The position numbers were made by a program, and so were the translations under genes. A stretch of DNA of 64,000 nt from a virus, in the IMG/VR virus record IMGVR_UViG_3300049005_000030, positions 1 to 64,000 of that record, one strand, 5' to 3'. The notes beneath the pieces were generated by a model. The model saw only the letters and a list, made by a program, of their open reading frames with translations. It did not search any database and had not been told where the DNA came from. The number at the start of each line of letters is the position of its first letter. The first letter of the stretch is position 1. Positions 15,097-34,288 of the stretch are shown here, in pieces.

Positions 15097-16719
15097 GTGG
15101 CGGTGACGTTCGCGCCGAACCTGCGCCGGAAGGTGGTGGCCACCACCCCCGCTCGGGAAACCAAAGGTCTGGCCGACCGGGTCAAGACGTTTTTCCGTCA
15201 GTACGTCATCCCCGGCCAGCCCTACTTCGTCCCGTGGAACACCGACCGCGCCGTCCGCGAGGGCTTCGAGACCAACCCGTGGATCTACCGCGCCGTGCAC
15301 GTGATCGCGTCCAAGTCGCTGGACCTGCCGATCGTGCTGCGCCAGAACGACGGCGACAAGGGCGATCCGCTGGCGCCGGAGCTGGACCCGACCCGGCTGC
15401 TGTACCTGCTCAACGTGGAGGCCAACCCCTGGGAGCGGGCCAAGATCTTCCGCTACCGCCTGATCGCCCAGTTCCTGCTGTCCAGCAGGGGCGTGTTCAT
15501 CGAGGTGGTGCGCACCCGCGCCGGCCGCATCGGGCTGCTGAGCCTGCTGGACCCGGACAAGGTCGAGATCATCCCGACCAAGGAAATCCTGCCCGACGGC
15601 ACCGAGAAGATCGACCCTATCGGCACGTTCCGGATCACCCTGCAAGGCGGGGAACGCACGTTCGACTACCTACCCCGCTTCGACCCCAAGGGCAGTTACG
15701 ACAGCCAGGCCAGCAGCGTGTTGTGGGTGCGCTCACCGCACCCCACCCTGATGTTCCAGGGCATGACGCCTACCCAGGCCGCCGCCATGAGCGCCGACAT
15801 GGACCGCGCCGCCCGGCTCTACAACCGCCGTTTCATGGACTCCGACGGCCGGCCGGGCACGGTGATCGCCGTCAAGGGTACCGCCACCCGCGACACTCTG
15901 GACGTGGTCGAGAGCCGGATAGCCGGCAAGGCCCGGATCGACGGCCCTGGGGGTGTCGTCGCCATCCAGGCCGATGGGCTCAGCATTGCCGACACCTCCG
16001 GCAACCCTCGGGACACCCAGTGGGCCGAGACGATGGACCGGATGCGCAAAGAGGTCAGTATGACCTTCGGCGTCCCAGAGTCGATCTTGGGCGACGCGTC
16101 CGGACGCACCTTCGACAACGCCGACGCCGAAAAAGAGAACTTCTGGGAGGACACCGAGTCCCCCCTGCTGGCCATCCTGGACGACCAGCTGGACGTGCTC
16201 ACCGGCGGCTATGACGACTCCCTGTTCCTGCGCCACGACAAGTCCGGCGTGTGGGTGCTCGGCCGGCACCGGCGCATGGAGCTGGACCGCGCCTCGGCCG
16301 AGGTCGACACCGGCAAGCGCACCATCAACGAGTACCGCGCGCTGGCCGGCCTGGACGAGTACGAGAGCCCGCTGGCCCGCGTGCTGCTCATCCCCGGCGG
16401 CAAGATCATCGGCGCACTCAACGCCGAGGACGAGGCGGCCGCCGCCAAGGCCCCGATCCTGGGCAACCGGCTGCCTGCGGGCAACGTCGAAGCGCAGCAG
16501 GCCGCAGCCTTGAGCGGCCAGGCCGGCGCGGCCATCGGCTCGCTGGCCGGGGTGAACGCGGCCAACAACATCAACAACGCCAACAGCCTGCGCGCCCTGC
16601 CGCCCGGCGACCGCCAACCCACGGCGCTGGCCGGCAAGGACGGCGAGCCCCCGGACTTGGAGGGTAAGCAGGGCGGCGCGCGAGACCGAGGCGGGCGCAC
16701 CGCCACTGTCTGGCGATGA
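15097..16719 (+). CDS. HK97-type portal protein, 540 aa
   Basis: The portal forms the dodecameric ring through which DNA enters and leaves the head. The sequence fits the phage_portal family: NPWIYRAVHVIASKSLDLPI near the N-terminus, IAQFLLSSRGVFIEV, a long stem/wing region, and MRKEVSMTFGVPESILGD followed by the NADAEKENFWEDTESPL helix. The length is normal. The C-terminal 100 residues are Ala/Gly-rich and probably disordered. The GTG start follows GGAAAGGGG. A possible -10 (TACCCT, 15060-15065) lies upstream. No terminase gene precedes it. Confidence 0.93.
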   Translation: MAVTFAPNLRRKVVATTPARETKGLADRVKTFFRQYVIPGQPYFVPWNTDRAVREGFETNPWIYRAVHVIASKSLDLPIVLRQNDGDKGDPLAPELDPTRLLYLLNVEANPWERAKIFRYRLIAQFLLSSRGVFIEVVRTRAGRIGLLSLLDPDKVEIIPTKEILPDGTEKIDPIGTFRITLQGGERTFDYLPRFDPKGSYDSQASSVLWVRSPHPTLMFQGMTPTQAAAMSADMDRAARLYNRRFMDSDGRPGTVIAVKGTATRDTLDVVESRIAGKARIDGPGGVVAIQADGLSIADTSGNPRDTQWAETMDRMRKEVSMTFGVPESILGDASGRTFDNADAEKENFWEDTESPLLAILDDQLDVLTGGYDDSLFLRHDKSGVWVLGRHRRMELDRASAEVDTGKRTINEYRALAGLDEYESPLARVLLIPGGKIIGALNAEDEAAAAKAPILGNRLPAGNVEAQQAAALSGQAGAAIGSLAGVNAANNINNANSLRALPPGDRQPTALAGKDGEPPDLEGKQGGARDRGGRTATVWR

Positions 16720-16798: not shown

Positions 16799-18010
16799 AT
16801 GGTGGCCGGCAACGAGAACCGCGCCGACCACAACGAAGTCCTGATCACCGCCATCATCACCGCCTACCTCGCGCGAACCCTCGGCGTCACCATCAGCCGG
16901 CTACGCGGCCCCGCCGCGCGCAAGGGCACCCGGTTCTGGGAAGGCGACGGGGCAGGCACGCGAACGCTCGACCCCGCCTACGTGCTGCCCGACAAGCTGA
17001 TACGCGAGCTGGAAAGCCAGATCACGCCGGTGTTCCAGCGCATCGCCGAGAGCGCCGCCGCCGAGACCGCCCAGCGCATCGACGGCGAGGGTGACGACCT
17101 GGTGCCCTACAGCGCGCAGGACATCGGCGACGCCGTGGCCGCCGCCGTCGGCCGCGTCATGGTCACCGCCGAGCGCTACGCCGACGAGGTGCGCCAGGCC
17201 ATCGCGCAGGCCGAGCACGACCACACCGCCGACCTGGACGCGGTCACCCGACAGGTGGAGGCGGCCAACCGGCGCGGCGGCGCGTGGCTGTCGACATCGG
17301 CGCGCACCCTCGGCTTCGCCCTGTCGAACGAGGCCGCCCGCCGTGAAGCCATCCGGCGCGGAGTCACCCACCACCAGTGGGTGGCCAAGGATGACGATCA
17401 CGTCCGCGCCTCGCATGTCGTCGCCGACGGCCAAGTCCGGCTGATCGACGACCGGTTCGAGGTCGGCAAGGCCCGGCTGCTCTATCCCGGCGACCCGTCC
17501 GGCCTGCCCTCCACCTGGGACGAGGTCGCGAACTGCCGGTGCGGGCAGGCATTCGGAATGCCCGCCATGGCCACCCAGCGCATGTTCGCCCTGATGCGCG
17601 GCCAACGGCACAACCCCGACGCGCCCGGCAACACCTCCACCGCATTGGCCATTGCCGTCGCGGCCGCCGCCGATCAGCCCGGTGGCGCGACCATCACCGC
17701 CAGCCCGCACGGCTTCCCGGACCTGCCGCCGGTGGCCACCCTGCTGTCCGCGCCCACCGACCTGGTGGGCTACCGGGTGCTGGACAAGCCGCCGCAGGTC
17801 ACCCCCGGCCAGTGGCTCACCCTGCCCGGACAGCTCGTGCTGGGCATGGCCCCGCCAGCCTCGGCCGCCGCGATCCTGCTCACCGTGCTGATCCCGGCCG
17901 GCACCACCATCGGCGTGGCCGGCGGCGCGATGCTGCTGCCTGGTGACGTCCCGCTGGAAGTGCTGGGCGCCGGCATCGACGGCATCCGCGCTCAGGCTGT
18001 GACGCCCTGA
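16799..18010 (+). CDS. MuF-like minor head protein with C-terminal ART-like region, 403 aa
   Basis: Residues about 190-260 carry the MuF pattern: HHQWVAKDDDHVRASHVVAD, then DRFEVGKARLLYPGDP and EVANCRCGQAF. MuF proteins sit at the portal vertex and can be injected. The last 110 residues (LVGYRVLDKPP ... ILLTVLIPAGTT ... LEVLGAGIDG) resemble the strand order of ADP-ribosyltransferase domains attached to MuF proteins, but no clear STS motif is seen, so it may be inactive. ATG 16799 has no RBS, yet the frame is open and protein-like back to about 16554, so a frameshift fusion with the portal is possible. Confidence 0.8.
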   Translation: MVAGNENRADHNEVLITAIITAYLARTLGVTISRLRGPAARKGTRFWEGDGAGTRTLDPAYVLPDKLIRELESQITPVFQRIAESAAAETAQRIDGEGDDLVPYSAQDIGDAVAAAVGRVMVTAERYADEVRQAIAQAEHDHTADLDAVTRQVEAANRRGGAWLSTSARTLGFALSNEAARREAIRRGVTHHQWVAKDDDHVRASHVVADGQVRLIDDRFEVGKARLLYPGDPSGLPSTWDEVANCRCGQAFGMPAMATQRMFALMRGQRHNPDAPGNTSTALAIAVAAAADQPGGATITASPHGFPDLPPVATLLSAPTDLVGYRVLDKPPQVTPGQWLTLPGQLVLGMAPPASAAAILLTVLIPAGTTIGVAGGAMLLPGDVPLEVLGAGIDGIRAQAVTP

Positions 18011-18156: not shown

Positions 18157-18176
18157 GGGACTGGAGTACCCAGAAA

Positions 18177-18210
18177 CGACGAAACCCCCGCCGTAGACGG
18201 GGGCTTGTCG
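18177..18210. terminator. Hairpin between convergent/divergent genes
   Basis: Core stem CCCCCG/CGGGGG with outer CGAC/GTCG pairing. On the minus strand it is followed by TTTCGTCGTTTC, a better terminator tail than on the plus strand. It could end the portal-MuF transcript or a short minus-strand RNA started at about 18257. Confidence 0.55.
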
Positions 18211-18293: not shown

Positions 18294-18357
18294 CCACGTG
18301 GCCGCCGATACGGCTGCGACGATGGCGCGAGCGCGCATAGATCGTGAGGAGACAGCG

Positions 18358-19860
18358 ATGGCAGACGGGGCTCGAACCTCGGGAATGGTCGCGCTGGTGC
18401 CCAGTGCCGACGATGTGGACAAGCTGGCCATAGGCGGCGGCGAGGACCCCGGGGAGCTGCACCTGACGCTGGCCTACCTCGGCGACGATGTGTCTCAGCT
18501 TTCACCGCAGGAGCGCAACGGGCTGGCCGGCGCCATCCTCGACCACGCGCAGAACCTCGCGCCGATCACCGCGCGCGTCATGGGGCACGCCTCGTTCAAC
18601 CCCGACGGCGGCGCCGAGGGCGACATGGACCCCTGCGCCGTCTACCTGGTCGGCGACTCCCCGACCATCCCAGGCTTGCATGACGACCTGGCCACGCGCA
18701 CCAGCGCCGAGCAGCACACTCCCTTCATCCCGCACGTCACCGCCGGCTACGGCAAGAGCGCCGGGGACCTGTCCTACTCCGGCCCGGTCACCTTCGATCG
18801 GATGCGGCTGGCCCTGGGCGACCAGGCGTACGACTTCCCGCTGGGCGGGGTCGACCCGGACGCCGAAGACGACGACGCCGAAGAGGACCTGGCCGACGGC
18901 GGGGCCGACGAGGCCGCCGAGGGCGAGGATCCCGAGGATGACGACCGTATTTTCGAGGATGACGGGGTGGATCCCGAGGATGACGACTATGGCCTGAAGG
19001 GCCTGGAGTCGTTTCGCCAGTACGAGACCAAGCGGGTATTCAGCTCGGATCGCCGCAAGAAGCTGGCCCTGTCCGGGCACGCCATGTCCGACGGGTCGTA
19101 CCCGATCGAGACGGTGGGCGATCTGTCCAACGCCATCCGGTCCTACGGCGAGGCCCCGGCGGCCAAGCGCCCCGCCGTGCGCGCCCACATCGTCAAGAGC
19201 GCCAAGAAGCTGGGCGCGCGAAAGATGATCCCGACGAAGTGGCCGGAGCACCCGGCCAACAAGGGCAAGAAGCAGCTGACGGTGGCCGAGATCGAGCAGA
19301 AGGTGGCCAGTCCGGATCCGCGCGCGGCCAAGCTGCGCAAGTACTGGGCGCACAACCCGAAGGCGCGGGCCAAGTGGCAGCCCGGGGTCCCGGGCGACTT
19401 CAACCGGCTGCGAACGCTGCTGGCCAAGTACGTGCATGACCCGCACATCCTGGCCGGGCTGACGGCGAACATCCACAAGATGGCGACCGGCGCATGGCCC
19501 GGCCACGAGAAGTCGGTGCGGATCAGTGTGGCGCAGTTCAAGGCCGCGCTGGCTATGGCCGACCCGGACGCCGAGCAGCCTTCGGCGGATGTGTTCGCCG
19601 ACCTTGGGAGCGTCGACGAGGACGCCGGGGAGCGCGGCGACGACGCGCCCGACGAGGACCCGGACGACGAGGACGCCTACGAGCAGGCGCTGGCTGACGA
19701 GGTGGACTGGAACATCACCCCGGATGGCGTGCTGGTCGAGGGTGGCGACACCGGCGCGGTGTCCAACCTCGGTGAGGACGAGGACGAAGAGGACGACCCG
19801 GTGGGCCCGACGCCGCGTGATGACGGGTCGGATCTGTTCAGCGTCGCCGGTTTGGGTTGA
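18358..19860 (+). CDS. 2H phosphoesterase plus DUF6582-like virion-block protein, 500 aa
   Basis: The N-terminal 165 residues are a 2H phosphoesterase (2'-5' RNA ligase-like) domain, with the two required HxT motifs H35-L-T37 and H126-V-T128. An acidic linker follows (about 180-215). The middle (about 240-310) has DGSYPIETVGDLSNAIRSYG and HIVKSAKKLGARKMIPTKWP, a pattern I associate with DUF6582 in actinophage head genes. The C-terminus is highly acidic. ATG 18358 follows GAGGAGA. The family cuts 2'-5' or cyclic nucleotide bonds (Acb1 of T4 is a 2H enzyme), so an anti-defence role is possible; a structural role is equally likely. Confidence 0.8.
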   Translation: MADGARTSGMVALVPSADDVDKLAIGGGEDPGELHLTLAYLGDDVSQLSPQERNGLAGAILDHAQNLAPITARVMGHASFNPDGGAEGDMDPCAVYLVGDSPTIPGLHDDLATRTSAEQHTPFIPHVTAGYGKSAGDLSYSGPVTFDRMRLALGDQAYDFPLGGVDPDAEDDDAEEDLADGGADEAAEGEDPEDDDRIFEDDGVDPEDDDYGLKGLESFRQYETKRVFSSDRRKKLALSGHAMSDGSYPIETVGDLSNAIRSYGEAPAAKRPAVRAHIVKSAKKLGARKMIPTKWPEHPANKGKKQLTVAEIEQKVASPDPRAAKLRKYWAHNPKARAKWQPGVPGDFNRLRTLLAKYVHDPHILAGLTANIHKMATGAWPGHEKSVRISVAQFKAALAMADPDAEQPSADVFADLGSVDEDAGERGDDAPDEDPDDEDAYEQALADEVDWNITPDGVLVEGGDTGAVSNLGEDEDEEDDPVGPTPRDDGSDLFSVAGLG

Positions 19861-19886: not shown

Positions 19887-19922
19887 TTCGCTGTTCCGTT
19901 CGACCGCAGGAAGGCGCAGGCC

Positions 19923-22900
19923 GTGACCGCACCCCCGATCCCCGCCCTGGAATACAAGACCCTCAGTGCCACCCTGGCCGCGCCGACCGCGCTCAACCCC
20001 AGTGACACCGGGGACGCCGTGGTGGTCGGCTACGACGACGCCAAGGGCACCGTCGACGCCGTAGTGGCCGTCACCGGCACTCGCGACGAGGTGGGCGACA
20101 TCGTCACCCCCGGCGCGTTCAAGTCGAGCATCGCTAGCCGCCACCCCAAGATGTGCCTGGGCCACGACTGGAACCGACCCATCGGCTGGCCCATCGACTA
20201 CAAGGAACTGCTGCCCGGAGACCCCGGCCTGCCGGCCGAGACCGCCGACGGCAAGCCGTGGCCTGCCGAGGCCGGCGGCCTGTGGACGCGCAACCAGTAC
20301 ATGCTCGACACCCAGGACGGCCGCGACGCCTACGCGCACGCGAAGTTCTACGGCAACAAGACGGCCTACTCCATCGGCTACGTCGTCACCAAGTCCCGCA
20401 AGGCCCTGGTCGACGGCCTGCCCACCCGGATCATCGACGAACTCGACCTGTACGAGTACGGCCCGGTGCTGCACGGAGCGCACCCGCTGGCCACCCAGCA
20501 GTCGGTGAAGACCGCCGCGCCGCAGGGTATCGAGAACAAGGTGCGGCTGGTTCACGACGCCCACTACTGGGGTCTGCCGATGGGCACCCCGATCCACCCC
20601 GGCATGAAGCCGCGCGGCGCGAAGGCGCAGAAGCTGGAACGGGCCGGGCACGCCGTGTCCGAGACCGAGGGCGCGGTGGACATCCCCAATGACAAGCTGC
20701 GGATCAAGCCGACCGCGCGGGGCAAGTCGAAGTTCAAGCCGGACGGCGCGCTACAGGCCCAGCTCTACGGCGAGATCATGTCGAAGATCGACGAGGGCGA
20801 GGCTCCCGAGGACTTCTCGGTCGACGACCCGAACGGCCTGAACAAGAAGGAAGGCGAGTACAACCCGCTGGACCTGATGGTGGCCAACGGCGTCACCCCG
20901 GCCGAGATGGAGAACACCCTCCGCAACGCCAACTGGGACGACAGCCGGGTGGGCGACTCGGCCGACAACCAGGACCAGATCAACACTTTCGTTGACGACG
21001 TGGTGGGCGTCTACCGCGAGAAGTACAACGCCGCCCTGGTCCAGCAGAACGGCAACAAGGACACCGCCACCGTCGCCGACCCCGCCGACACCGGCACAGA
21101 CTCGGCCGGTGTCGAAGGCCCCACCCCGGACGTGCCTGACACCACCGCGCCCGGAGACGCCAATGCCGGCGACACCACCGCGCCGGCCGCGCCCGAAGCG
21201 ACCGCGCCGGACCACCCGCAGGCAGCGCCGGGGTCGACTCCCCCGGCCGCGCCGGCAGCCGCGCCGGGGCAGCCGGACGCGCCCGGCATGTCCACCACGA
21301 AGCTGACCACGCTGCCCAAGCACGAGGCGGCGGCCGCCGCCGGCTCCATGTCCGACCAGGAACTGGCCGCGCACGACACCGAGATGGCCTCGCGTGCCAC
21401 CCAGCTCGGCCGCGACGGCCAGGTCAGCCCCAACCATCAGACCGTCAAGGACGAGGTCGCCCGGCGTGCGGGCAACCCGCCGCAGGCCCCGGCGGCCGGG
21501 CCCGCCGCCCCGGCCGCGAACGCGCCGGCTCCGACGACGGCCAAGCCGCCGCGCAAGCTGGCCGCCAAGCCGGCCGCCGCGATCGGCGCGGCCAAGCCCG
21601 GCAGCGTCACCCAGCACCCGACCGGCCCCGACGGCAAGCCCGACACCACCGCCGAGCCCGTGGCCAAGCAGGGCCTGGTCACCGACAAGGTGCCGCCGAA
21701 GATGGCCGACGGCCTGGCCAAGGCTGGCCTGGCCGAGCACACCGCCGAGCCCGGCAAGATGGTGCTGACCCCGCAGGGCGAGCAGCACCACCATGCCATC
21801 AACGGCACCACGCCGCCCGCGCCGAACGGCGCGCCAGGGGAACAGGCCCCTACCGCGCCGACGATGTCCACGAACAAACTGGCCTCGCTGAACAAGCAGG
21901 ACGTGGCCACAGCGGTGGGCGCGATGTCCGACCACGAGCTGGCCGGACACGACCAGGAGTTGGCCAGCCGCGCCTCCCAGCTCGGCAAGCCAGGTCAGGT
22001 CACCCCCAACCACCAAGCGGTCAAGGACGAGATCGCCCAGCGTCCCGCACCGGCCCCCGGCGGGATCCCCCCGACCGCCGCCGTGGGAGCGCCGGGGATG
22101 GCTCCGGCCGTCCCCGGCGCATCGGCCGTCCCTGGCGAGCCTGCGCACGCCAATGCCGTGGCCGCCGAGACGTTGCGCACCCTGCCGCGCGACGCCTCCG
22201 GCCGCGTCGACCTGGTCAACGCGCCCACCTCGCTGGTTCAGACCATGCGACAGGCCGGCATCGACGACAGCGGCGGCGCGGAACAAGATGAACAGTCGTT
22301 TACCCGCGCGCTGGACGCGCTGGACCAGCAGTACGGCCAGGACCCGGCCATGGCGCACGCGCTGACCACCGCACGCGGCTTCGTCACTGGCGAGCAGCCC
22401 GGCGCCCGCGTCATCCAGAAGCAGGCCGCCGCCGACGCCAAGCAGCTCCAGACCGATGAGACCCCGGTGGGCGACCGGGCCGACGCCGCGCGCGTGCTGG
22501 CCTCCGCCCTGAACAAGTCCGGCATGGCTTACATGTCCGACCCGTCCGGCAACGTCCGCGACAGCCGCCCCATCCCGAACGCCCTGTCGAAGTACGCCCA
22601 GGCCCTGGTCAGCTATCACGGCGCGCTGCCGCCCGCGAAGGTCGCCAAGCCCTCCGGCGCGCCCGACTACACCCCGACCGGCGACGCCAGCCGCCTCGGC
22701 GAGCTGACCGACAGCCAGTTGGCCGCCGAGGTTGGCCACGCGCAGGGCAAGCTGGACGAGATCACCAAGGCCGACCCCCGCCGCGAGTCCGGCCAGCACG
22801 CTGACGCCAAGCTGAAGCTGGACGCCTTCCAGGGTGAGCACAGCCGACGGCAGCAGGCCGGGGAGACGCGCCCGGACGAGACCGCTCCCGACGCAAGCGG

Positions 22901-25900
22901 AGGCACTCCTCCGAATCCGGAGGCCGTTTCGGCGACGTCCACACAGGACGGACAACCGGCCGCCGTTCCCAACGCTGCCAACGAAACCGGCATCCCCGGC
23001 ACACCCGCCGCACCGCCGGCCACCCCGCACTCCGACACTGTTCCGACCCCACAGGAAGCCGCCCAGATCACCGCCGACGAACAGGGCGACGTCCAGGACA
23101 TCGGCGACTCCGCTCAAGGCGTGGTCGAGTCCGACGACGGCGAGTTCGAGGTGGAACCCGACATCGCCGAACGCCAGGACCGCATCGCCACCCTGCTCGG
23201 CCAGTCCGATAGCGGCAACCTCGACCTGGGCAGCCAGAACGACGACCAGTTGCGCTCAACCCGAGGCGACATCGTCGGCGAGATCCAGTTGCAGCGGTAC
23301 CTGGACAACCGCAACCGCCAGCGCGCCAACCCGCAGCCCACCACACCGGAACCGCCGCACGCCCCGGAGGGCGCCGCACCGGCCCAGGGAACCGTCGACG
23401 GCCACACCCCCGGCACCCAGGCGACGCCCGGCGCGCCGGTGCCGGCCGTTCCGGCCGAATCGGGGCCGCCGCCGCAGCGCCCTGGCGTCGCGGGCGCGGC
23501 CGAGGACTTCGCCGACGCCCTGGAATCCGGCGACAGCGAGAAGATCGACGCCGCGCGGGCCCGGCTGGCGTCCAGCCTGCGCCGGTCCAAGACAGACGCC
23601 GCCTCGGTCGGCGCGATGCGCGAGCTGGCCTCCGGCGAAGGCGACCCGAGTGCGGAGGACCTGCGAGCCGGCGCCCAGACGGTGCGCACGGAGGTGCGCG
23701 AGCGGCGCAACACCCAGGCTCGCAGCCGCCGCACCGCGCGCCGCTTCGAGCGCGACCACCTGCGCAACCTGCTGCACCAGGTCGAAGGCGAGATGGACCG
23801 CCGCAACATGCGGTACGACCCGGTGGCGCCGGAGTCCGGCGACGGCGCGGCCGCCTCCGGGACGTGGCGGACCGAGCTGCGCAAGCATTCCTGGTCCAAT
23901 CTCGGCTTCCAGGAAGACCATCTGAGCGGGGCCAACTTCACCGCCATGGTCTCCACCCCGGTCGACGCCAAAAACAACCCCACCGCTGGCGCGAACTACA
24001 CCTGGAAGACCATCGACAACGATGGCAACACCATCACCCAGGGCAATGGCACCGTCGACAACGCCACCGGCGCCCGCGACGCCATCGTCACCGCGCTCAA
24101 GGCGCAGCAGGCCCTGGGCAACCTGCCCGCCGACGCCGGGGTGCCCGAACCCAGCACTCCCCAGACCAGCTCGGCGCGCACCCATGCCGACGTGGCCGCC
24201 GCCGTCAGCCAGATGCAGGAGCGGCTGAGCACGGCCGAACGCGCCGTCAACCCCATCACGGGGGCCCGCGATCCGCTGGGCAAGCGCCCGACGCTGACCC
24301 CGCCCGCGCGACCCGCGTTCACCAGCCCCGACCAGGTGCGCCAACACCTGGCGACCCTGGCCGCCGACGGGTCGCAGACCCGCCAGCTCATCGCCCGGCG
24401 AGCCGTGAACGTGCAGTGGGACAACGTGCAGCTCACCCCCGGCGGCGGCCTCATGGTCGTCACCGTGGCCGGCGAGAAGGACCCGCAGCTGTGGCACACC
24501 GGCAGTGGCCGCTCGGCCATGTCGCTGATCTACCGGGGTTCCGGCGGCGCCTCCCGCCTGTCCGCGCCGGATCTGCTGCGCGCCGGCACGCTCATGGAGT
24601 CGCTGCCCGACGACAACGGGCACACCGTCGACTTCTCCAGGTCCGACGACAACAGCGTGATGACCAGCACGAGCGACTACACCGTGGGCGACCGCAGCGG
24701 CGTCGACGCGTTCGCTCGCAACGTCATGAGCGCGCTGGTCGCCGAGAAGATCAAGAACGGCCAGTGGGGCAGCCCCGTGGTCAGGGGCATGTCCTCCGAC
24801 GTCGCTCCGTTCTCGCCGGGCAGCAACCACACCCGCGCCGGCTACGTGCAACAGAACCGCGACGCCCTGACCACAATGCTGTCCAACTCCCTGACCGGCC
24901 GCCGCGTCAAGCCCACCGGCGAGGACGCGGACACCCTCAACGTCGCCACCGCCGCCCAGACCCTGACCAACCTGGGCGCGCCCGACGCGGCCGCCGTGCT
25001 GCTGCGCCGCCGCGCCGCCGAGGTGCGCGCCACCTTCGGCGGTGAGGCCGACGCGCACGGTGCGAGCACCCTGGACAACCTGGCCGCCGGCCACCTGTCC
25101 ACCTACTCACCTGTCCTGTCCCCCGGCGAGCGGCTGCTCAGCATCACCCAGGGGGAACGCGTCACCGTGGCCGACCCCGACGGCAACGCCCGTAGCTACC
25201 GGGTGCTGTCGCCGCCGCGCACCGGCACGTTCCCCGCCTATCGCACCGCCACCGTCATGGACGAGTCGACCGGCGAGACCGGCGTGCTCACCGTCGCCAA
25301 CAATGCCGCCGAGCAGCCGCAGATGACCATCAGTCCCAGCGCGGACCTGCCGGCCATGGTGCGCATCGACCTGCACTCGCCCACCTTTACCGTGACCGGC
25401 GCGGACGAACCGGCCCCCGCCAACGCCGACGAGGTGCGCGCGAACGCCATGGCCGAGGTGGACGCCATCCCGCATGAGGTGCTGGACGCGGCCGCCGCCG
25501 CCCTGCCCTCCACCAACACCGAGACCGCCGCGCGTCGGGCTCTGCCGGCCGACCAGCGGCCGCCCCGGCGCACCAGCCCGCGCGCGGTCCCCAAGACCGC
25601 GCCGGAGGCCAAGCCGGGCACCCCGGTCGCTGGCGAGCAGCACCTGGCGGCCACCCAGGCCAGCACGCTCAGCTCGTGGGTGGGCGCCGAGCACACGCTG
25701 TCCGACTCGGCCCCTGCCGGTGGATTTGACTCGCTGGCCTCATGGCGGGAGTGGGCCAGGGAGGCCGCCAGCGACCCGAACACGCCGCCGAAGGTGCAGC
25801 AGGGGCTGACCAATGCGTTGCTCAACGACGACTACCTGGAAGCGAACGGGGCACGTCTGTCACCGGGTGGTCACATGATCGTGTTCGGAAAGAACGGACA

Positions 25901-27005
25901 CGTGGTCTACGCCCGCGCTGGCATGACCGTGTTCCCGGCCGGCGTCGGCGCGGCATCCGCCATCGGCGTGGACAAGATCCCGCCCGACACCGGTATGGCC
26001 ATCGCCGACGGGATCGAGCGCAGCTCGTGGAACGGGCAGACCATCCGCTGGGGCGATGGGTACACAGCCGCCACCTCCGACATCAAGAAGGTTATGGAAA
26101 ACCTGCCGCGCGCCAGCGACAAGGTGGGGTACCGGGATCCGATGCTGTCCCCGGCCAAGCTGGCGTTCGCCGGCCAGGTGGCCGACGCCAAGACGCCCCG
26201 CGTGGGCGACATCGAGGCGCTGGAAGCACTGGCCAGCGGATCGGCCTCGCCGAACATGGCGAGCCCGGACGCCATCGGCGGCCTGCATCTACAGGACCGG
26301 GAGAACGCCTACCGGCAGATGGCCGGTGTGCGCGCCCGGGTGTTCTACTCCACCCCGGTCAAGCGGAACGAGCCCGCCGACACCAAGGCAGGCCAGAACC
26401 TGGCGAAGCGGGTGGCCACGGAAATGCGGATCGCCCAGTCGCTCTCGCAGGTCGCTCCGCTGGACGCCTCGCGCCGGCTGAACCGGGTGGCCGACGAGAT
26501 CGACGGCCAGAAGATCACTGAGGCCAACGGCGGTTCCGAGCACAACCCGGCCGCCGAGATGCGGGCGGCGGCCCGCGCGATCGCCGATGCCTACGACGAG
26601 AACAAGGTGACGCCGTTCGGGAAGCTTCGCCGCGCCGGAAATGTCGGTCTGGTCATGCCACGCTCGGCTCCGAAGGTGACGGCCGTTGGCGCGGGTACCT
26701 ACAGCCGTGACGACCGGGCCAAGGCGCTGGGCGAGATGCTGGCCCAGGGGGTCCAGTTCACGCGCGGCGAGGACGGGGCGACCATCGCCCGGTTCGGCGA
26801 CCAGGCTGTGACGACCTCGAACACGCCGGGGCAGTTCACCACCGCGTACGCGGGCGGCAACGGCAAGCCGGTGCAGGGCGGCATCGGGCTCCAGCCGGAC
26901 GGCAGTATCACGATGCGCTGGCAGGACCGGCTCACCCGCACCACGGTTCAGGCCACGATTCCGGCGGGCGGCTGGGATTTCCAGGACTCCACAGCCGAGG
27001 AATAA
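19923..27005 (+). CDS. Prohead protease fused to giant virion (polyvalent-type) protein, 2,360 aa
   Basis: Residues about 30-185 are an HK97-type prohead serine protease: TGTRDEVGDIVTPGAF, catalytic H81 in LGHDW, nucleophile S150 in KTAYSIGY, and DLYEYGPVLHGAH. Stand-alone members are usually about 200 aa; here 2,100 more residues follow without a stop. These include Pro/Ala-rich linkers, two 60-residue direct repeats starting at M456 and M648 (MSTTKLTTL and MSTNKLASL), coiled-coil stretches and several unrecognised globular regions (for example about 1300-1560 and 1900-2360). This suits a polyvalent protein that is packaged and cleaved. The GTG start follows AGGAAGG; P11 lies upstream. Confidence 0.85.
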   Translation: MTAPPIPALEYKTLSATLAAPTALNPSDTGDAVVVGYDDAKGTVDAVVAVTGTRDEVGDIVTPGAFKSSIASRHPKMCLGHDWNRPIGWPIDYKELLPGDPGLPAETADGKPWPAEAGGLWTRNQYMLDTQDGRDAYAHAKFYGNKTAYSIGYVVTKSRKALVDGLPTRIIDELDLYEYGPVLHGAHPLATQQSVKTAAPQGIENKVRLVHDAHYWGLPMGTPIHPGMKPRGAKAQKLERAGHAVSETEGAVDIPNDKLRIKPTARGKSKFKPDGALQAQLYGEIMSKIDEGEAPEDFSVDDPNGLNKKEGEYNPLDLMVANGVTPAEMENTLRNANWDDSRVGDSADNQDQINTFVDDVVGVYREKYNAALVQQNGNKDTATVADPADTGTDSAGVEGPTPDVPDTTAPGDANAGDTTAPAAPEATAPDHPQAAPGSTPPAAPAAAPGQPDAPGMSTTKLTTLPKHEAAAAAGSMSDQELAAHDTEMASRATQLGRDGQVSPNHQTVKDEVARRAGNPPQAPAAGPAAPAANAPAPTTAKPPRKLAAKPAAAIGAAKPGSVTQHPTGPDGKPDTTAEPVAKQGLVTDKVPPKMADGLAKAGLAEHTAEPGKMVLTPQGEQHHHAINGTTPPAPNGAPGEQAPTAPTMSTNKLASLNKQDVATAVGAMSDHELAGHDQELASRASQLGKPGQVTPNHQAVKDEIAQRPAPAPGGIPPTAAVGAPGMAPAVPGASAVPGEPAHANAVAAETLRTLPRDASGRVDLVNAPTSLVQTMRQAGIDDSGGAEQDEQSFTRALDALDQQYGQDPAMAHALTTARGFVTGEQPGARVIQKQAAADAKQLQTDETPVGDRADAARVLASALNKSGMAYMSDPSGNVRDSRPIPNALSKYAQALVSYHGALPPAKVAKPSGAPDYTPTGDASRLGELTDSQLAAEVGHAQGKLDEITKADPRRESGQHADAKLKLDAFQGEHSRRQQAGETRPDETAPDASGGTPPNPEAVSATSTQDGQPAAVPNAANETGIPGTPAAPPATPHSDTVPTPQEAAQITADEQGDVQDIGDSAQGVVESDDGEFEVEPDIAERQDRIATLLGQSDSGNLDLGSQNDDQLRSTRGDIVGEIQLQRYLDNRNRQRANPQPTTPEPPHAPEGAAPAQGTVDGHTPGTQATPGAPVPAVPAESGPPPQRPGVAGAAEDFADALESGDSEKIDAARARLASSLRRSKTDAASVGAMRELASGEGDPSAEDLRAGAQTVRTEVRERRNTQARSRRTARRFERDHLRNLLHQVEGEMDRRNMRYDPVAPESGDGAAASGTWRTELRKHSWSNLGFQEDHLSGANFTAMVSTPVDAKNNPTAGANYTWKTIDNDGNTITQGNGTVDNATGARDAIVTALKAQQALGNLPADAGVPEPSTPQTSSARTHADVAAAVSQMQERLSTAERAVNPITGARDPLGKRPTLTPPARPAFTSPDQVRQHLATLAADGSQTRQLIARRAVNVQWDNVQLTPGGGLMVVTVAGEKDPQLWHTGSGRSAMSLIYRGSGGASRLSAPDLLRAGTLMESLPDDNGHTVDFSRSDDNSVMTSTSDYTVGDRSGVDAFARNVMSALVAEKIKNGQWGSPVVRGMSSDVAPFSPGSNHTRAGYVQQNRDALTTMLSNSLTGRRVKPTGEDADTLNVATAAQTLTNLGAPDAAAVLLRRRAAEVRATFGGEADAHGASTLDNLAAGHLSTYSPVLSPGERLLSITQGERVTVADPDGNARSYRVLSPPRTGTFPAYRTATVMDESTGETGVLTVANNAAEQPQMTISPSADLPAMVRIDLHSPTFTVTGADEPAPANADEVRANAMAEVDAIPHEVLDAAAAALPSTNTETAARRALPADQRPPRRTSPRAVPKTAPEAKPGTPVAGEQHLAATQASTLSSWVGAEHTLSDSAPAGGFDSLASWREWAREAASDPNTPPKVQQGLTNALLNDDYLEANGARLSPGGHMIVFGKNGHVVYARAGMTVFPAGVGAASAIGVDKIPPDTGMAIADGIERSSWNGQTIRWGDGYTAATSDIKKVMENLPRASDKVGYRDPMLSPAKLAFAGQVADAKTPRVGDIEALEALASGSASPNMASPDAIGGLHLQDRENAYRQMAGVRARVFYSTPVKRNEPADTKAGQNLAKRVATEMRIAQSLSQVAPLDASRRLNRVADEIDGQKITEANGGSEHNPAAEMRAAARAIADAYDENKVTPFGKLRRAGNVGLVMPRSAPKVTAVGAGTYSRDDRAKALGEMLAQGVQFTRGEDGATIARFGDQAVTTSNTPGQFTTAYAGGNGKPVQGGIGLQPDGSITMRWQDRLTRTTVQATIPAGGWDFQDSTAEE

Positions 27006-27048
27006 AAGCCGATAATAGCGCGGCTAACAATTCAATAATTGGGCGACA

Positions 27049-27076
27049 CGCCGGGCGGCTACGAAAGCGCCCGGCG
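27049..27076 (+). terminator. Intrinsic terminator before major capsid gene
   Basis: Perfect 9-bp stem CGCCGGGCG/CGCCCGGCG with a 10-base loop, followed by TTTCCCGTCT. It separates the giant protein from the capsid gene. The rest of the 156-base gap is relatively AT-rich and may hold a capsid promoter (TTGGTA at 27106), but no convincing -10 is seen. Confidence 0.8.
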
Positions 27077-27161
27077 TTTCCCGTCTAATCTGCCCCTTAG
27101 CGCGCTTGGTACTGACCGGCGCGGAGTAGCCGTATCCCTCCGTGTTGAGAGGACACACACC

Positions 27162-28487
27162 GTGTCGACCATTGCCAAGGAACGCGACTCGCTGCGCAAG
27201 GTGCTCACCGAGAAGAAGGCACTACTGGACCAGATCGAGACCAAGGGACTGAAGGACGAGACCGGCAACGGCCACTACGTCATCAGCGCCGAGGCCGCTG
27301 GCGAGTTCCGCAAGGTCATCGGCGAGTGCAAGGACATCAAGGCCCGGCTGGGCGAGCTCGGCGAGTACGCCGAGATCGACGCCTACCTGAACAACCCGGG
27401 CGCCGAGTCCAAGGCCGCCCAGATCCCGGTGCAGCGCGGCATGATGGAGCGCAAGAGCATCGGCCAGCGGTTCACCGAGTCCGCCGAGTTCAAGGACCGC
27501 AGCTCCACCGGCGTCATGCACACCGCCTTCGAGCTCGGCGAGGACCTGACCTCCCTGGAACGCAAGGACATCTACACCGCCGCCGGTGGCACCCTGACCC
27601 GCTTCGGCTTCGGCACGGTCGAGCAGGAGCCGGTTGTCCAGCGGCCCTACCGCACCGACCGGGTGCGCGACCTGTTCCCGCAGGCCAACACCAACGCCAA
27701 CCTGATCGAGTACATGCGCGTCCTGGGCTACCTGGACGGCAACAACAACGCCGCGCCGGTCGCCGAACGCGACGCCGGTAGCCCGCAGAACTTCGGCCTC
27801 AAGCCCCAGACCAAGCTGAAGTTCCAGCCGGCCCAGTCCCCGATCCGGACCCTGGCCCACTGGGAAGTCGCGCACCGCAACACCCTCGATGACGAACCGA
27901 TGTTGCGTTCGATCATCGACAACGAACTGCTCTACGGCCTGCGGCTGGTCGAGGATGACCAGTTCCTCAACGGCGACGGCACCGGCGAGAACCTGCTGGG
28001 CATCCTGCGCACCCCCGGCGTGCAGGACTACCCCGGTTTCCCGCTGCCCAGCCCGTCGCCGGTGCAGGCCCTGGACACCCAGATCGACGCGGTGCGCCGC
28101 GCGGCCACCCGCGTCATGCTCGCCTACTACTCCCCGACCGGCGCCGTGGTCCACCCGTACGACTGGGAGACCATGGAGACCACCAAGACGACCCAGGGCC
28201 AGTACGTGATCGCCCTGAACGTCGCGGTGGGCGCGGAGAAGCGGATCTGGCAGATGCCGGTCGTGGCCTCCCCCGCCATGCAGCAGGGCGTGGGCCTGGT
28301 CGGCGCGTTCGGCCTCGGCGCGAAGATCTACGACCGCCAGCAGTCCAACATCCGCGTGGCCGAGCAGCACGAGGACCTGTTCATCCGCAACGCGGTGCTG
28401 ATCCTGGCCGAGCAGCGGGTGGGCCTGACCGTGTCCCGCCCGGAGTCGTTCGTCAAGATCGACCTGGTGGCGGGCGTCCACAGCTGA
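27162..28487 (+). CDS. Major capsid protein, HK97 fold, 441 aa
   Basis: An N-terminal helical scaffold-like arm (residues about 5-80: LRKVLTEKKALLDQIETKG and LGELGEYAEIDAYL) precedes the capsid domain. The latter has AAGGTLTRFGFGTVEQEPVV, AHWEVAHRNTLDDEPMLRSI, DDQFLNGDGTGENLLGIL, and a beta-rich C-terminus (VGLTVSRPESFVKIDLV). This is the phage_capsid/HK97 layout, and the arm is probably removed by the protease encoded just upstream. GTG 27162 follows GAGAGGA; the upstream in-frame ATG at 27039 is rejected because it lies before the terminator. Confidence 0.93.
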   Translation: MSTIAKERDSLRKVLTEKKALLDQIETKGLKDETGNGHYVISAEAAGEFRKVIGECKDIKARLGELGEYAEIDAYLNNPGAESKAAQIPVQRGMMERKSIGQRFTESAEFKDRSSTGVMHTAFELGEDLTSLERKDIYTAAGGTLTRFGFGTVEQEPVVQRPYRTDRVRDLFPQANTNANLIEYMRVLGYLDGNNNAAPVAERDAGSPQNFGLKPQTKLKFQPAQSPIRTLAHWEVAHRNTLDDEPMLRSIIDNELLYGLRLVEDDQFLNGDGTGENLLGILRTPGVQDYPGFPLPSPSPVQALDTQIDAVRRAATRVMLAYYSPTGAVVHPYDWETMETTKTTQGQYVIALNVAVGAEKRIWQMPVVASPAMQQGVGLVGAFGLGAKIYDRQQSNIRVAEQHEDLFIRNAVLILAEQRVGLTVSRPESFVKIDLVAGVHS

Positions 28488-31948: not shown

Positions 31949-34288
31949 GTGGCGGTATCGGTTCGATCGTCGACAGTGGCGACCGGTGACGCTGTCGCCA
32001 CGATCACCGTTGCCAAGCCGTCCGGCACCGTGTCGGGCGACCTGCTGGTGTTGTTCCAGTTCTGCGACCCCGATGTGACCCCGGCCAACATGACCGCGAC
32101 CGGGTTCACCCAGTCCGGCACGACCAAGACGGTCACCGGCGTGTCCACGTCAAAGGTCTGGACCAAGGTGGCGGGCGGCAGCGAGCCGTCCACCTACACC
32201 TTCGGCATGGACGTCAACACCTCCGGTGTCTACATCCTCGTGTGCGTCACCGGCCAGGACGCCACCACGCCGGTCAATATCGCGCCGACCTGGGGTAGCT
32301 CCACCACCGCCGCCCAGACCAACCATGTCGCGCCGGCCATCTCCCCCACCGTGATCAACACCTTGTTGCTGTGCGGCTTCACTAGCGGTTCATCCACCAC
32401 CGCGTCCTACACGCCGGCCAGCGGCATGACCGAGCTGCAAGACGCCTGGTCGAACTTCGAATTCGCCTCGGTCGACTCCCAGGCGCTGACCGCCACCGGA
32501 ACGACCGGGACCCGCACCGCCGTGGCCACCTCCGGCGGAAACGGCTGGATCGCGGTCAGCCTCGCCATCGCGCCCAGCACCAGCGCCACCTTTACCGGCT
32601 CCCCCTCGGCCACCGGCACCGCCAGTGCGACCCTGACCGGGGCCAAGAAGGTCGTCAGCAGCCAGTCACCCGGCCTGACCGCCTCGGCCACCCCGGTCGG
32701 CGCGAAAGCCGTCACCGGCACGCGCACAGCCTCGGCCACCGCCTCGGCCACCCTGACCGGCGGCAAAACCGAGACCGCCACCCTCTCGGCCACCGCCACC
32801 GCCTCGGCCAGCCGCACCGGCGTGCACGCTGGACACGGCGAGCCCGTCGCGACCGGACTCACCCTCGGCGCGAGCGTGACCGCCGGCCGGCTGTCCACCA
32901 CCGCCGCCGCGACCGCTGTCGCCACCGCCTCAGCCAGCCTTACCGGCACGCACACCACCGCCCGCACCACCACGGCCGCCGCGACGCTCGCGGCCACCGC
33001 CGCCGTCACCCGGGCCCAGGCCGGCGCGGCCACCGCCACCGCCACCGCAGGCGCGAGCGACACCGTGATCCGGACGCAGGTCTCCGCGCCGAGCGCGGCC
33101 ACCGCAACCCTGTCGGCAGCGGCAACCGGCGGCCTCGCGTTCGTCGGCTCCCCCAGCGCGGCCGCCACCCTGTCCGCCTCGGCCGTGGCCGGCAAGGTCG
33201 CCGCCGGCAGCCCGGCCGCCGCCACCGCCACCCTGGGCGCGTCCGCGATCGGCGCGGCGCAGCGCGGCGGCACGGTCACCGCGAGCGGACTCACCCTCGG
33301 CGCGTCCGCCGTCGCGGGCCGGCTGTCCACCACCGCCGTCGCCACCGCCGTCGCGACGCTCGCGGCCGGCGCCGCCGTCATTCGGGTCCAGACCGGCGCG
33401 GCCACCGCTGTCGCGACGCTCGCGGCCGGCCGGACCGGCATCCGAGCCCAGGTCGTCACCCGGGGAGGGGTGGCCACCCTCGGCGCGTCGTCCAGTGCGA
33501 CGAAATCGACATCCGTCGTGGCAACCGCCACCGCTGTCGCCACCGCTGTCGCCGTCGGATCGAAGGCGCCGGCCGATGTCGCCGTGACGGCCGCCGCGAC
33601 GCTTTCGGCCGGCGCGGTCGGGGTCAAGCGGATCGTCGGGGCCGGCACCGCCGCCGCGACGCTTTCGGCCGGCGCGACCGGCCTGCATCGTACCGGCGTG
33701 ATCGTGGCGGCCAACTCGATCGCGGCCGCCGCCTCGGCCGCCGGCATCAAGGCCACCGGGCGCGCGGCGACCGCCGGGGCCGTGCTGGCCGCCGTCGCCA
33801 CCGTCGTCAAGGCGGTCGTGGTCACGCGCGCCGCCAACGGCGTCGCGCTCTCGGCTACGCGGGTCGTGACGGGCAAGGCCGTGCCGGTGTCGAGGACGGC
33901 CGCCGGCATCGCAGCCGGCGCCTCGGCGGTGGTACGCACGGGGCGACTTGGCGCGCCGAGCGCGGCGGCGGTAATCACGGTGACCCGGTCGACGGTCGGC
34001 CGGCGATTCGGCGTGCGCACCGCCACCGCCACCGCGTCGGCCGCCAGCGCCGTCGACCAGAAGGCCGTCGCCACACGAGTCGTCGCCGCCGCGATGGCCA
34101 CAGCCAGAGCGGCCACCGTCACGCACCGGCCGGGCGGACCGGCCACCGCGCACGCCGCGCTGACGGCCACGATGCGCACGCGCAACATCACCGCGTGGCC
34201 GCCTCAGGCCACCGAGCCCCCGCAGGTCAGCACCGGCGTGCACGCTGACAAGCCAGTGATCAACGCACGACCGGGAGCGGGCACATGA
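31949..34288 (+). CDS. Large Ala/Thr-rich repetitive virion protein, 779 aa
   Basis: Residues 1-205 form a beta-rich domain of the kind seen in actinophage minor tail proteins (VRSSTVATGDAVATITVAKP ... SLAIAPS). The next 530 residues are imperfect repeats of roughly 20-25 residues built on ATATLSA/ATLAAG, ending in a short Pro-rich tail. Some DNA repeats are nearly identical, for example GTCGCGACGCTCGCGGCCGG at two places near 33352 and 33410, indicating recent duplication. It may form a fibre or a beta-solenoid shaft. GTG start after GGAGGTGAG. Confidence 0.75.
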   Translation: MAVSVRSSTVATGDAVATITVAKPSGTVSGDLLVLFQFCDPDVTPANMTATGFTQSGTTKTVTGVSTSKVWTKVAGGSEPSTYTFGMDVNTSGVYILVCVTGQDATTPVNIAPTWGSSTTAAQTNHVAPAISPTVINTLLLCGFTSGSSTTASYTPASGMTELQDAWSNFEFASVDSQALTATGTTGTRTAVATSGGNGWIAVSLAIAPSTSATFTGSPSATGTASATLTGAKKVVSSQSPGLTASATPVGAKAVTGTRTASATASATLTGGKTETATLSATATASASRTGVHAGHGEPVATGLTLGASVTAGRLSTTAAATAVATASASLTGTHTTARTTTAAATLAATAAVTRAQAGAATATATAGASDTVIRTQVSAPSAATATLSAAATGGLAFVGSPSAAATLSASAVAGKVAAGSPAAATATLGASAIGAAQRGGTVTASGLTLGASAVAGRLSTTAVATAVATLAAGAAVIRVQTGAATAVATLAAGRTGIRAQVVTRGGVATLGASSSATKSTSVVATATAVATAVAVGSKAPADVAVTAAATLSAGAVGVKRIVGAGTAAATLSAGATGLHRTGVIVAANSIAAAASAAGIKATGRAATAGAVLAAVATVVKAVVVTRAANGVALSATRVVTGKAVPVSRTAAGIAAGASAVVRTGRLGAPSAAAVITVTRSTVGRRFGVRTATATASAASAVDQKAVATRVVAAAMATARAATVTHRPGGPATAHAALTATMRTRNITAWPPQATEPPQVSTGVHADKPVINARPGAGT

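Follow-up and report, generated by a model that had tools for sequence, protein, structure and literature searches.

The IMG/VR virus record IMGVR_UViG_3300049005_000030 carries, within the 64 kb analysed here out of its 101,153 bases (positions 1 to 64,000; hereafter the window), a single gene for a protein of 2,360 residues. This giant protein begins with a prohead protease of the S78 family and continues into a conserved tag of about 30 residues, long linkers, two constant modules and a C-terminal cargo region. Our analysis indicates that it is probably a cargo carrier of the polyvalent type residing inside the phage head, and that the tag may be a signal for capsid targeting or for processing. 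The evidence comprises the integrity of the gene, its family, the invariant catalytic histidine and serine, the distribution of the tag, the exchange of cargo among relatives and a conserved gene order.

An intact gene for a giant prohead protease

A preliminary description of this DNA, made from its letters, had reported a frame of 2,360 codons starting with a prohead protease and had named sequencing error that joins separate frames as a possible flaw. The open reading frame (ORF) is present exactly as reported, with a GTG start (Table 1), and is genuine, not an assembly artefact. Four other contigs carry end-to-end homologues of 2,044, 2,044, 2,053 and 2,404 amino acids (aa), each encoded in one ORF (L009, L010, L011 and L070; comparison loci bear L numbers), and this excludes the joining of frames. 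The C-terminal half of the window protein is 33–36% identical to these homologues, two of which (L009 and L010) are nearly identical to each other, and a fifth, remoter homologue (L167) shares 25% identity over part of that half. Together with the homologues, a coding signal that is uniform over the full length (third-position GC of 0.81–0.97 per 354-base block) and a ribosome-binding site before the start codon rule out sequencing error or a chimaera as the origin of the ORF.

The N-terminal domain matches Pfam PF04586 with 32.8 bits against a curated cut-off of 21 and phrog_80 (head maturation protease) at 3.7e-25, and the gene lies just 5' of that for the major capsid protein (MCP), as befits an S78 protease. 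The catalytic residues H81 and S150, described earlier as intact, are indeed found at those positions and do not vary among the 12 giants aligned (window included) or in 7 more. A comparison with 50,697 phage records matched nothing of the giant but its protease domain, at about 47% identity at best; the nearest annotated relatives of this domain are those of Bendigovirus, Cantarevirus and Gilgamesh (41–47% identity). Ordinary proteases of 417–641 aa occur in Gordonia phages Gray and GMA6, Brevibacterium phage Cantare and Streptomyces phage Gilgamesh, and a prophage search of GTDB genomes found S78 relatives of ordinary length only. A scan with the whole window protein as sole query returned no relatives. 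Scanning IMG/VR with the protease alignment as query gave 60 loci, whose protease ORFs include some of 1,578, 2,044, 2,053, 2,957, 3,143, 3,259 and 3,563 aa and one of at least 3,574 aa that ends at the locus edge; several giants stop at contig ends, and their lengths are lower bounds.

Two further variants of the S78 gene were observed. At L133 and L151 (GC about 0.61), S78 ORFs that reach 3,500 aa or more have matches to DUF6321 and to a sigma-70 region 4-like domain. At L059 (9902–13588), the S78 domain is split between residues 53–164 and 497–549 of a stop-to-stop ORF that matches Pfam intein-splicing and LAGLIDADG models further downstream, and one or more inteins probably lie within this prohead protease gene.

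A tag shared by the giants and by unrelated head proteins

Beginning 5–39 residues past the protease core, the giants display the tag, with the consensus E.Kv..VRDaxYWGxPxGTPIxPGMkPxG (core VRDaxYWGxPxGTPIxPGMkP). It is 64% identical between giants, compared with about 20–30% for the sequence that follows, and its conservation equals that of the protease. The tag also occurs at positions 14–40 of Gray gp26 (a VIP2-like ADP-ribosyltransferase), Gray gp27, GMA6 Orf13 and Orf14, and Stormageddon gp19 (an ADP-ribosyltransferase); beyond the motif, no further similarity was detected. These cultured Gordonia phages possess unfused, ordinary proteases and bear the tag on separate proteins, predicted ADP-ribosyltransferase toxins included. 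A short signal common to unrelated head cargo, the hallmark of capsid-targeted proteins of the T4 and P1 type, is found on S78 giants, ADP-ribosyltransferase proteins, Gray gp27 and gp8 of Mycobacterium phage Argie, a protein of 1,683 aa annotated as a MuF/protease fusion.

The tag is rare and taxonomically confined, being matched in only 28 of the 50,697 phage records, all of them actinobacterial phages. A DNA-pattern scan of IMG/VR yielded 26 stretches, nearly all of which lie in S78 giants, in two of the Gordonia phages named above or in short tagged ORFs; the match at L179 was rejected as chance. Two further occurrences were also recorded. A 284-aa frame on the Dactylosporangium roseum chromosome (L079, 10052–10903) has the tag at its N-terminus and is possibly prophage remnant cargo. 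Gordonia phage VanLee gp128 (L185, 4920–5759; 279 aa) shows a tag-like motif at residue 30 and adjoins Ro-like and acetyltransferase genes, not annotated head genes.

A maximum-likelihood tree computed from the protease domain (82 rows) unites the tag-bearing giants in a single clade (98/92), subdivided by cargo type; this clade also includes a 305-aa protease encoded on a Saccharothrix contig. Without correction for kinship, all 17 tag-bearing S78 ORFs of determinable length class reach at least 1,000 aa, and none of the 72 S78 ORFs of normal length has the tag.

The tag might instead be the place where the portal, MuF or capsid protein docks, or a site cut by the protease itself, in which case the tagged proteins would simply be structural neighbours. 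This is a possibility to be taken seriously, although we hold it rather doubtful: the short distance from the protease core, the presence of the tag inside the MuF-protease fusion of Argie and its protease-like degree of conservation would all suit docking, but its location at the extreme N-terminus of ADP-ribosyltransferases and other non-homologous proteins would not, nor would its absence from normal proteases and from the cargo-less relative L013 described below. Moreover, to dock inside the head and to be targeted there may be one and the same.

Exchangeable cargo in the relatives

Within one clade of actinobacterial phages, known from uncultivated material, the position between the 2H-phosphoesterase and MCP genes is filled according to a single plan: protease, tag, linkers, conserved helical modules and then a variable part. 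The gene order portal, MuF, 2H, giant and MCP is preserved in all tag-bearing giants compared, as far as the contigs extend. The linkers contain a helical repeat of about 60 residues in two copies (about residues 455–515 and 647–705 of the window protein); a TetR_C_20 match at residues 790–861 (E 0.12, under the cut-off) was set aside as weak.

The variable part differs from one subclade to another. A DarB-like methyltransferase-helicase is found in L016, L018, L019, L020, L022, L175 and L178, the last two being cut off by contig or locus ends. The L019 protein scores 1,274 bits against the PHROG for DarB-like antirestriction, and this type of cargo is 33–38% identical to DarB-like proteins of other phages over about 1,450 aa, with the motifs EPGSGSGTF, GNVPF, GAGKT, VDEAH, GTP and QRDGRIMRQG intact. 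The giants of L006 and L008 end in an HExxH zincin, and that of L161 (= L169) in a Zeta-toxin kinase (E 1e-13; Walker A GLGGAGKS). The window, L009/L010, L011 and L070 have in common an uncharacterised cargo of about 1,050 residues.

One member manages without any of these domains. The chain of L013 has 626 aa and ends about 20 residues past the second constant module, leaving 108 bases up to the capsid gene; it carries neither tag nor cargo, though it lies within the giant clade, where it groups with the zincin-type L006 (100/96).

Giant S78 proteases of another lineage were seen at L119 (1849–10494) and L131 (9893–16036), with a GC of about 0.55, ParB_N and KTSC domains and no tag. They are two of the long tagless S78 fusions that occupy a remote region of the tree, and cargo may thus have been fused to a prohead protease more than once.

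The cargo of the window phage and domain A

Most of the length of the window protein had been described as unrecognisable, and the roughly 2,100 residues past the protease are indeed recognised by none of the models of Pfam, PHROGs or PADLOC. The adenine methyltransferase and SNF2-type helicase of the DarB type are absent from it by Pfam and PHROG comparison. Searches with the cargo by tblastn in phages and plasmids gave chance-level matches only (best E 8 and 4), and comparison with PDB sequences gave none beyond a single match at 0.007 that has no evident meaning. The window protein consists, in short, of one known enzyme and new domains.

Structure prediction combined with profile searches, which the preliminary description had recommended, was informative for some parts of the protein. 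The protease was matched and one cargo domain, termed domain A, folds confidently; no effector was recognised, and the model of residues 1306–2360, made from five sequences, is of low confidence, with a predicted local distance difference test score (pLDDT) of 58.5 and a predicted template modelling score (pTM) of 0.31. Foldseek matches of this whole-cargo model were discarded as meaningless.

Domain A occurs twice in the window cargo, and its alignment comprises 32 diverse copies, many of which sit in the giant proteins that the Gilgamesh group encodes immediately before its ordinary protease. Foldseek found no match for the model of domain A in PDB or BFVD at E ≤ 0.001, and VIA-align reached a Z of 2.5 at best, which does not in itself prove a new fold. 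A profile match to PkwA in PDB (E 0.0005) was disbelieved, as no stretch of it passes alone. The conserved residues are glycines, one leucine and one glutamate. Domain A is a new family whose conservation does not look catalytic, and it marks a large uncharacterised portion of giant phage head proteins. Among these is Gilgamesh gp48 (L067, 7979–21853), a protein of 4,624 aa that lies between a portal/MuF fusion and the protease, contains domain A and has no above-threshold Pfam or PHROG match.

Fusion of a protease to a scaffold is common among phages, and the long C-terminal chain could be a structural component of the prohead, its core or scaffold, which maturation removes or leaves in place and which does nothing in the next host. 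We consider this unlikely. The helical, basic constant modules, which are retained even where cargo is missing, and the non-catalytic appearance of domain A would fit a scaffold, but the methyltransferase-helicase with intact motifs, the zincin and the Zeta-toxin kinase that relatives carry behind the same part are not scaffolds, and L013 does without the entire cargo region.

Genomic neighbourhood

The MCP gene starts 33 bases downstream of the giant ORF, and genes for tail sheath, tail tube, tape measure and baseplate wedge proteins follow further downstream, which identifies the window as part of a contractile-tailed phage. Transfer during conjugation, which the preliminary description had included in the polyvalent idea, consequently plays no role here. 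Table 1 lists the features of the giant gene and its neighbours.

Table 1. Positions of the giant gene, its parts and the adjoining head genes in the window.
Feature	Position	Strand	Basis or remark
Portal protein	15097..16719	+	Pfam PF04860; synteny
MuF-like head morphogenesis protein	16799..18010	+	PHROG matches (Pfam MuF under its cut-off); synteny
2H-phosphoesterase (2'-5' RNA ligase-like), phrog_6439 motif near C-terminus	18298..19860	+	Pfam, PHROG; synteny
Ribosome-binding site AGGAAGG	19908..19914	+	8 bases 5' of GTG; from sequence
Giant prohead-protease fusion, 2,360 aa	19923..27005	+	GTG start; ORF call and homologues
S78 prohead protease domain, residues 36-200	20028..20522	+	Pfam PF04586; phrog_80; alignments
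Catalytic H81	20163-20165	+	Alignments
Catalytic S150	20370-20372	+	Alignments
Tag, residues 203-232 (IENKVRLVHDAHYWGLPMGTPIHPGMKPRG), conserved motif of about 30 residues	20529..20618	+	Also at N-termini of other head-operon proteins
Post-tag extension, residues 233-380	20619..21062	+	Conserved in window-type members; blastp similarity to about 380-410
Pro/Ala-rich linkers, residues 381-1040	21063..23042	+	Composition
Constant module 1, residues 1047-1138 (DGEFEVEPDIAERQDRIATLL...)	23061..23336	+	In every cargo type and cargo-less L013
Constant module 2, residues 1182-1302, basic, helical, ending ..LRNLLHQVEGEMDRRNMRYDP	23466..23828	+	L013 keeps tail only
Cargo region of window phage, residues 1306-2360	23838..27002	+	DarB-like, zincin or Zeta-toxin domains instead in relatives
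Domain A copy 1, about residues 1465-1600	24315..24722	+	pLDDT 90.7, pTM 0.85 (predicted fold)
Domain A copy 2, about residues 1940-2065	25740..26117	+	Alignment
MCP, HK97 type	27039..28487	+	Pfam PF05065; PHROG; synteny

Several additional elements of this region deserve mention. The C-terminal part of the 2H protein (phrog_6439, residues 337–407) represents a second recurring head-operon motif, KYWAHNPKARAKWQPGVPGDFNRL...IHKMATGAWPGH, which is also present in Argie gp8 in the form RYWLAGAGAAKIRWGQPGDFDRC...LHREATGAMPGK. Between the MuF and 2H genes, 42 bases (18169–18210) match DNA between genes of Mycobacterium phages TClif and Shandong1 at 95–98% identity; this stretch can fold into a C/G-rich, terminator-like hairpin (ACCCCCGCCGTAGACGGGGGC), with a folding z-score of only −1.9. 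Further downstream, positions 31949–34288 encode a 779-aa protein in which an N-terminal globular region is followed by a loosely repetitive, Ala/Thr-rich tail of about 500 residues, and which has no match to PHROG.

Proposed role of the giant protein

Prohead proteases become part of the prohead core, as in T4 (PMC9958956), and a chain fused to such a protease would be enclosed in the prohead with it. The S78 domain would thus be drawn into the prohead, as is usual for these proteases, pulling the long C-terminal chain along, and the tag right behind it would act as a capsid-targeting or processing signal for fused and free cargo alike. Within the prohead, the protease would mature the capsid and probably cleave the linkers of its own chain, so that the cargo would stay behind in the head and be ejected together with the DNA. 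The cargo of the window phage would most likely act early in the next host by binding DNA or a host protein, and not as a recognised enzyme. That the protein is packaged, cleaved and ejected, and how this cargo acts, is what we infer from the arrangement described above. Action late in the producing cell, with the cargo being, for example, a toxin or modification enzyme used at lysis or against competing phages instead of an injected protein, is very improbable: Zeta-type kinases and ADP-ribosyltransferase domains could work there too, but every member has its cargo covalently fused to a capsid-resident protease and encoded in the head operon, and DarB sets the precedent of a head protein that guards injected DNA (PMC5512222).

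A number of observations weigh against the carrier interpretation. The tag and the giant size are largely inherited within one clade, so their association does not amount to independent events. In Argie gp8 the tag lies within the chain, at residue 882 of 1,683, and it is thus not always an N-terminal leader. The window cargo contains no effector domain recognised by Pfam, PHROGs or PADLOC; domain A has no invariant residue of catalytic appearance and recurs in tagless giant proteins of the group of Streptomyces phage Gilgamesh.

The polyvalent-protein concept, under which the preliminary description had placed the window protein, is well supported by sequence comparison for the family, in which DarB-like, zincin and Zeta-toxin domains stand behind the same protease; to the window protein itself it applies by analogy only. 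In its fullest form, the proposal would be that VRDaxYWGxPxGTPIxPGMkP is a new capsid-targeting motif of actinobacterial phages, operating on free effectors or in cis behind a self-releasing N-terminal protease with exchangeable cargo, and that the window cargo is a new injected class built on domain A, with a fold unmatched in PDB and BFVD. This combination is plausible, if still somewhat short of probable.

Were the carrier role correct, these phages would load antirestriction or toxin proteins by fusing them to a head-resident protease and would swap them freely. The tag would then offer a sequence handle for finding injected effectors of actinobacterial phages, which are otherwise hard to recognise, and would be a candidate for a packaging signal with which foreign proteins could be brought into actinobacterial hosts.

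Comparison with known systems

No description of an N-terminal prohead protease combined with a tag and exchangeable cargo was found in the open-licence literature, and the closest systems each share only part of this arrangement. Like the polyvalent proteins (Iyer et al. 2017, PMC5512222), the window giant is very large and encoded with head genes; it joins one known enzyme to new domains, and its relatives contain polyvalent kinds of cargo such as the DarB-type methylase-SNF2, the zincin MPTase and ParB. In polyvalent proteins, however, assemblin-like peptidases are reported to be always C-terminal (PMC5512222), whereas here the peptidase is N-terminal (residues 36–200 of 2,360) and followed by the tag, and the cargo domains of the window protein lie outside recognised models.

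Ordinary S78 proteases of Bendigovirus, Cantarevirus and Gilgamesh occupy the same position before the capsid gene. Unlike the window giant, they have neither tag nor cargo, and the giant or effector proteins of these phages are encoded by separate upstream genes. Argie gp8 provides a tagged head protein of large size from a cultured phage; it differs in being MuF-led and in not matching the S78 profile, the tag being the sole common element.

Phage P1 offers a parallel to the DarB-like cargo of the relatives, as it places a large antirestriction protein in the head by means of a short packaging signal. DarB protects injected DNA from type I restriction (PMC5512222), and its N-terminal 30 residues suffice to target a reporter into the capsid (PMC9024508). 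In P1, protease and DarB are separate genes and no common consensus was found among the Dar N-termini (PMC9024508), whereas here one motif stands behind the protease and recurs in unrelated proteins.

The internal proteins and Alt of T4 are a further counterpart. The T4 prohead core houses about 55 copies of the gp21 protease together with Alt and the internal proteins (PMC9958956), so that effectors, including an ADP-ribosyltransferase, share the core with the protease and bear a cleavable capsid targeting sequence. In T4 the cargo is not fused to gp21, in contrast to the single chain of the window giant, in which protease, tag and cargo follow one another.
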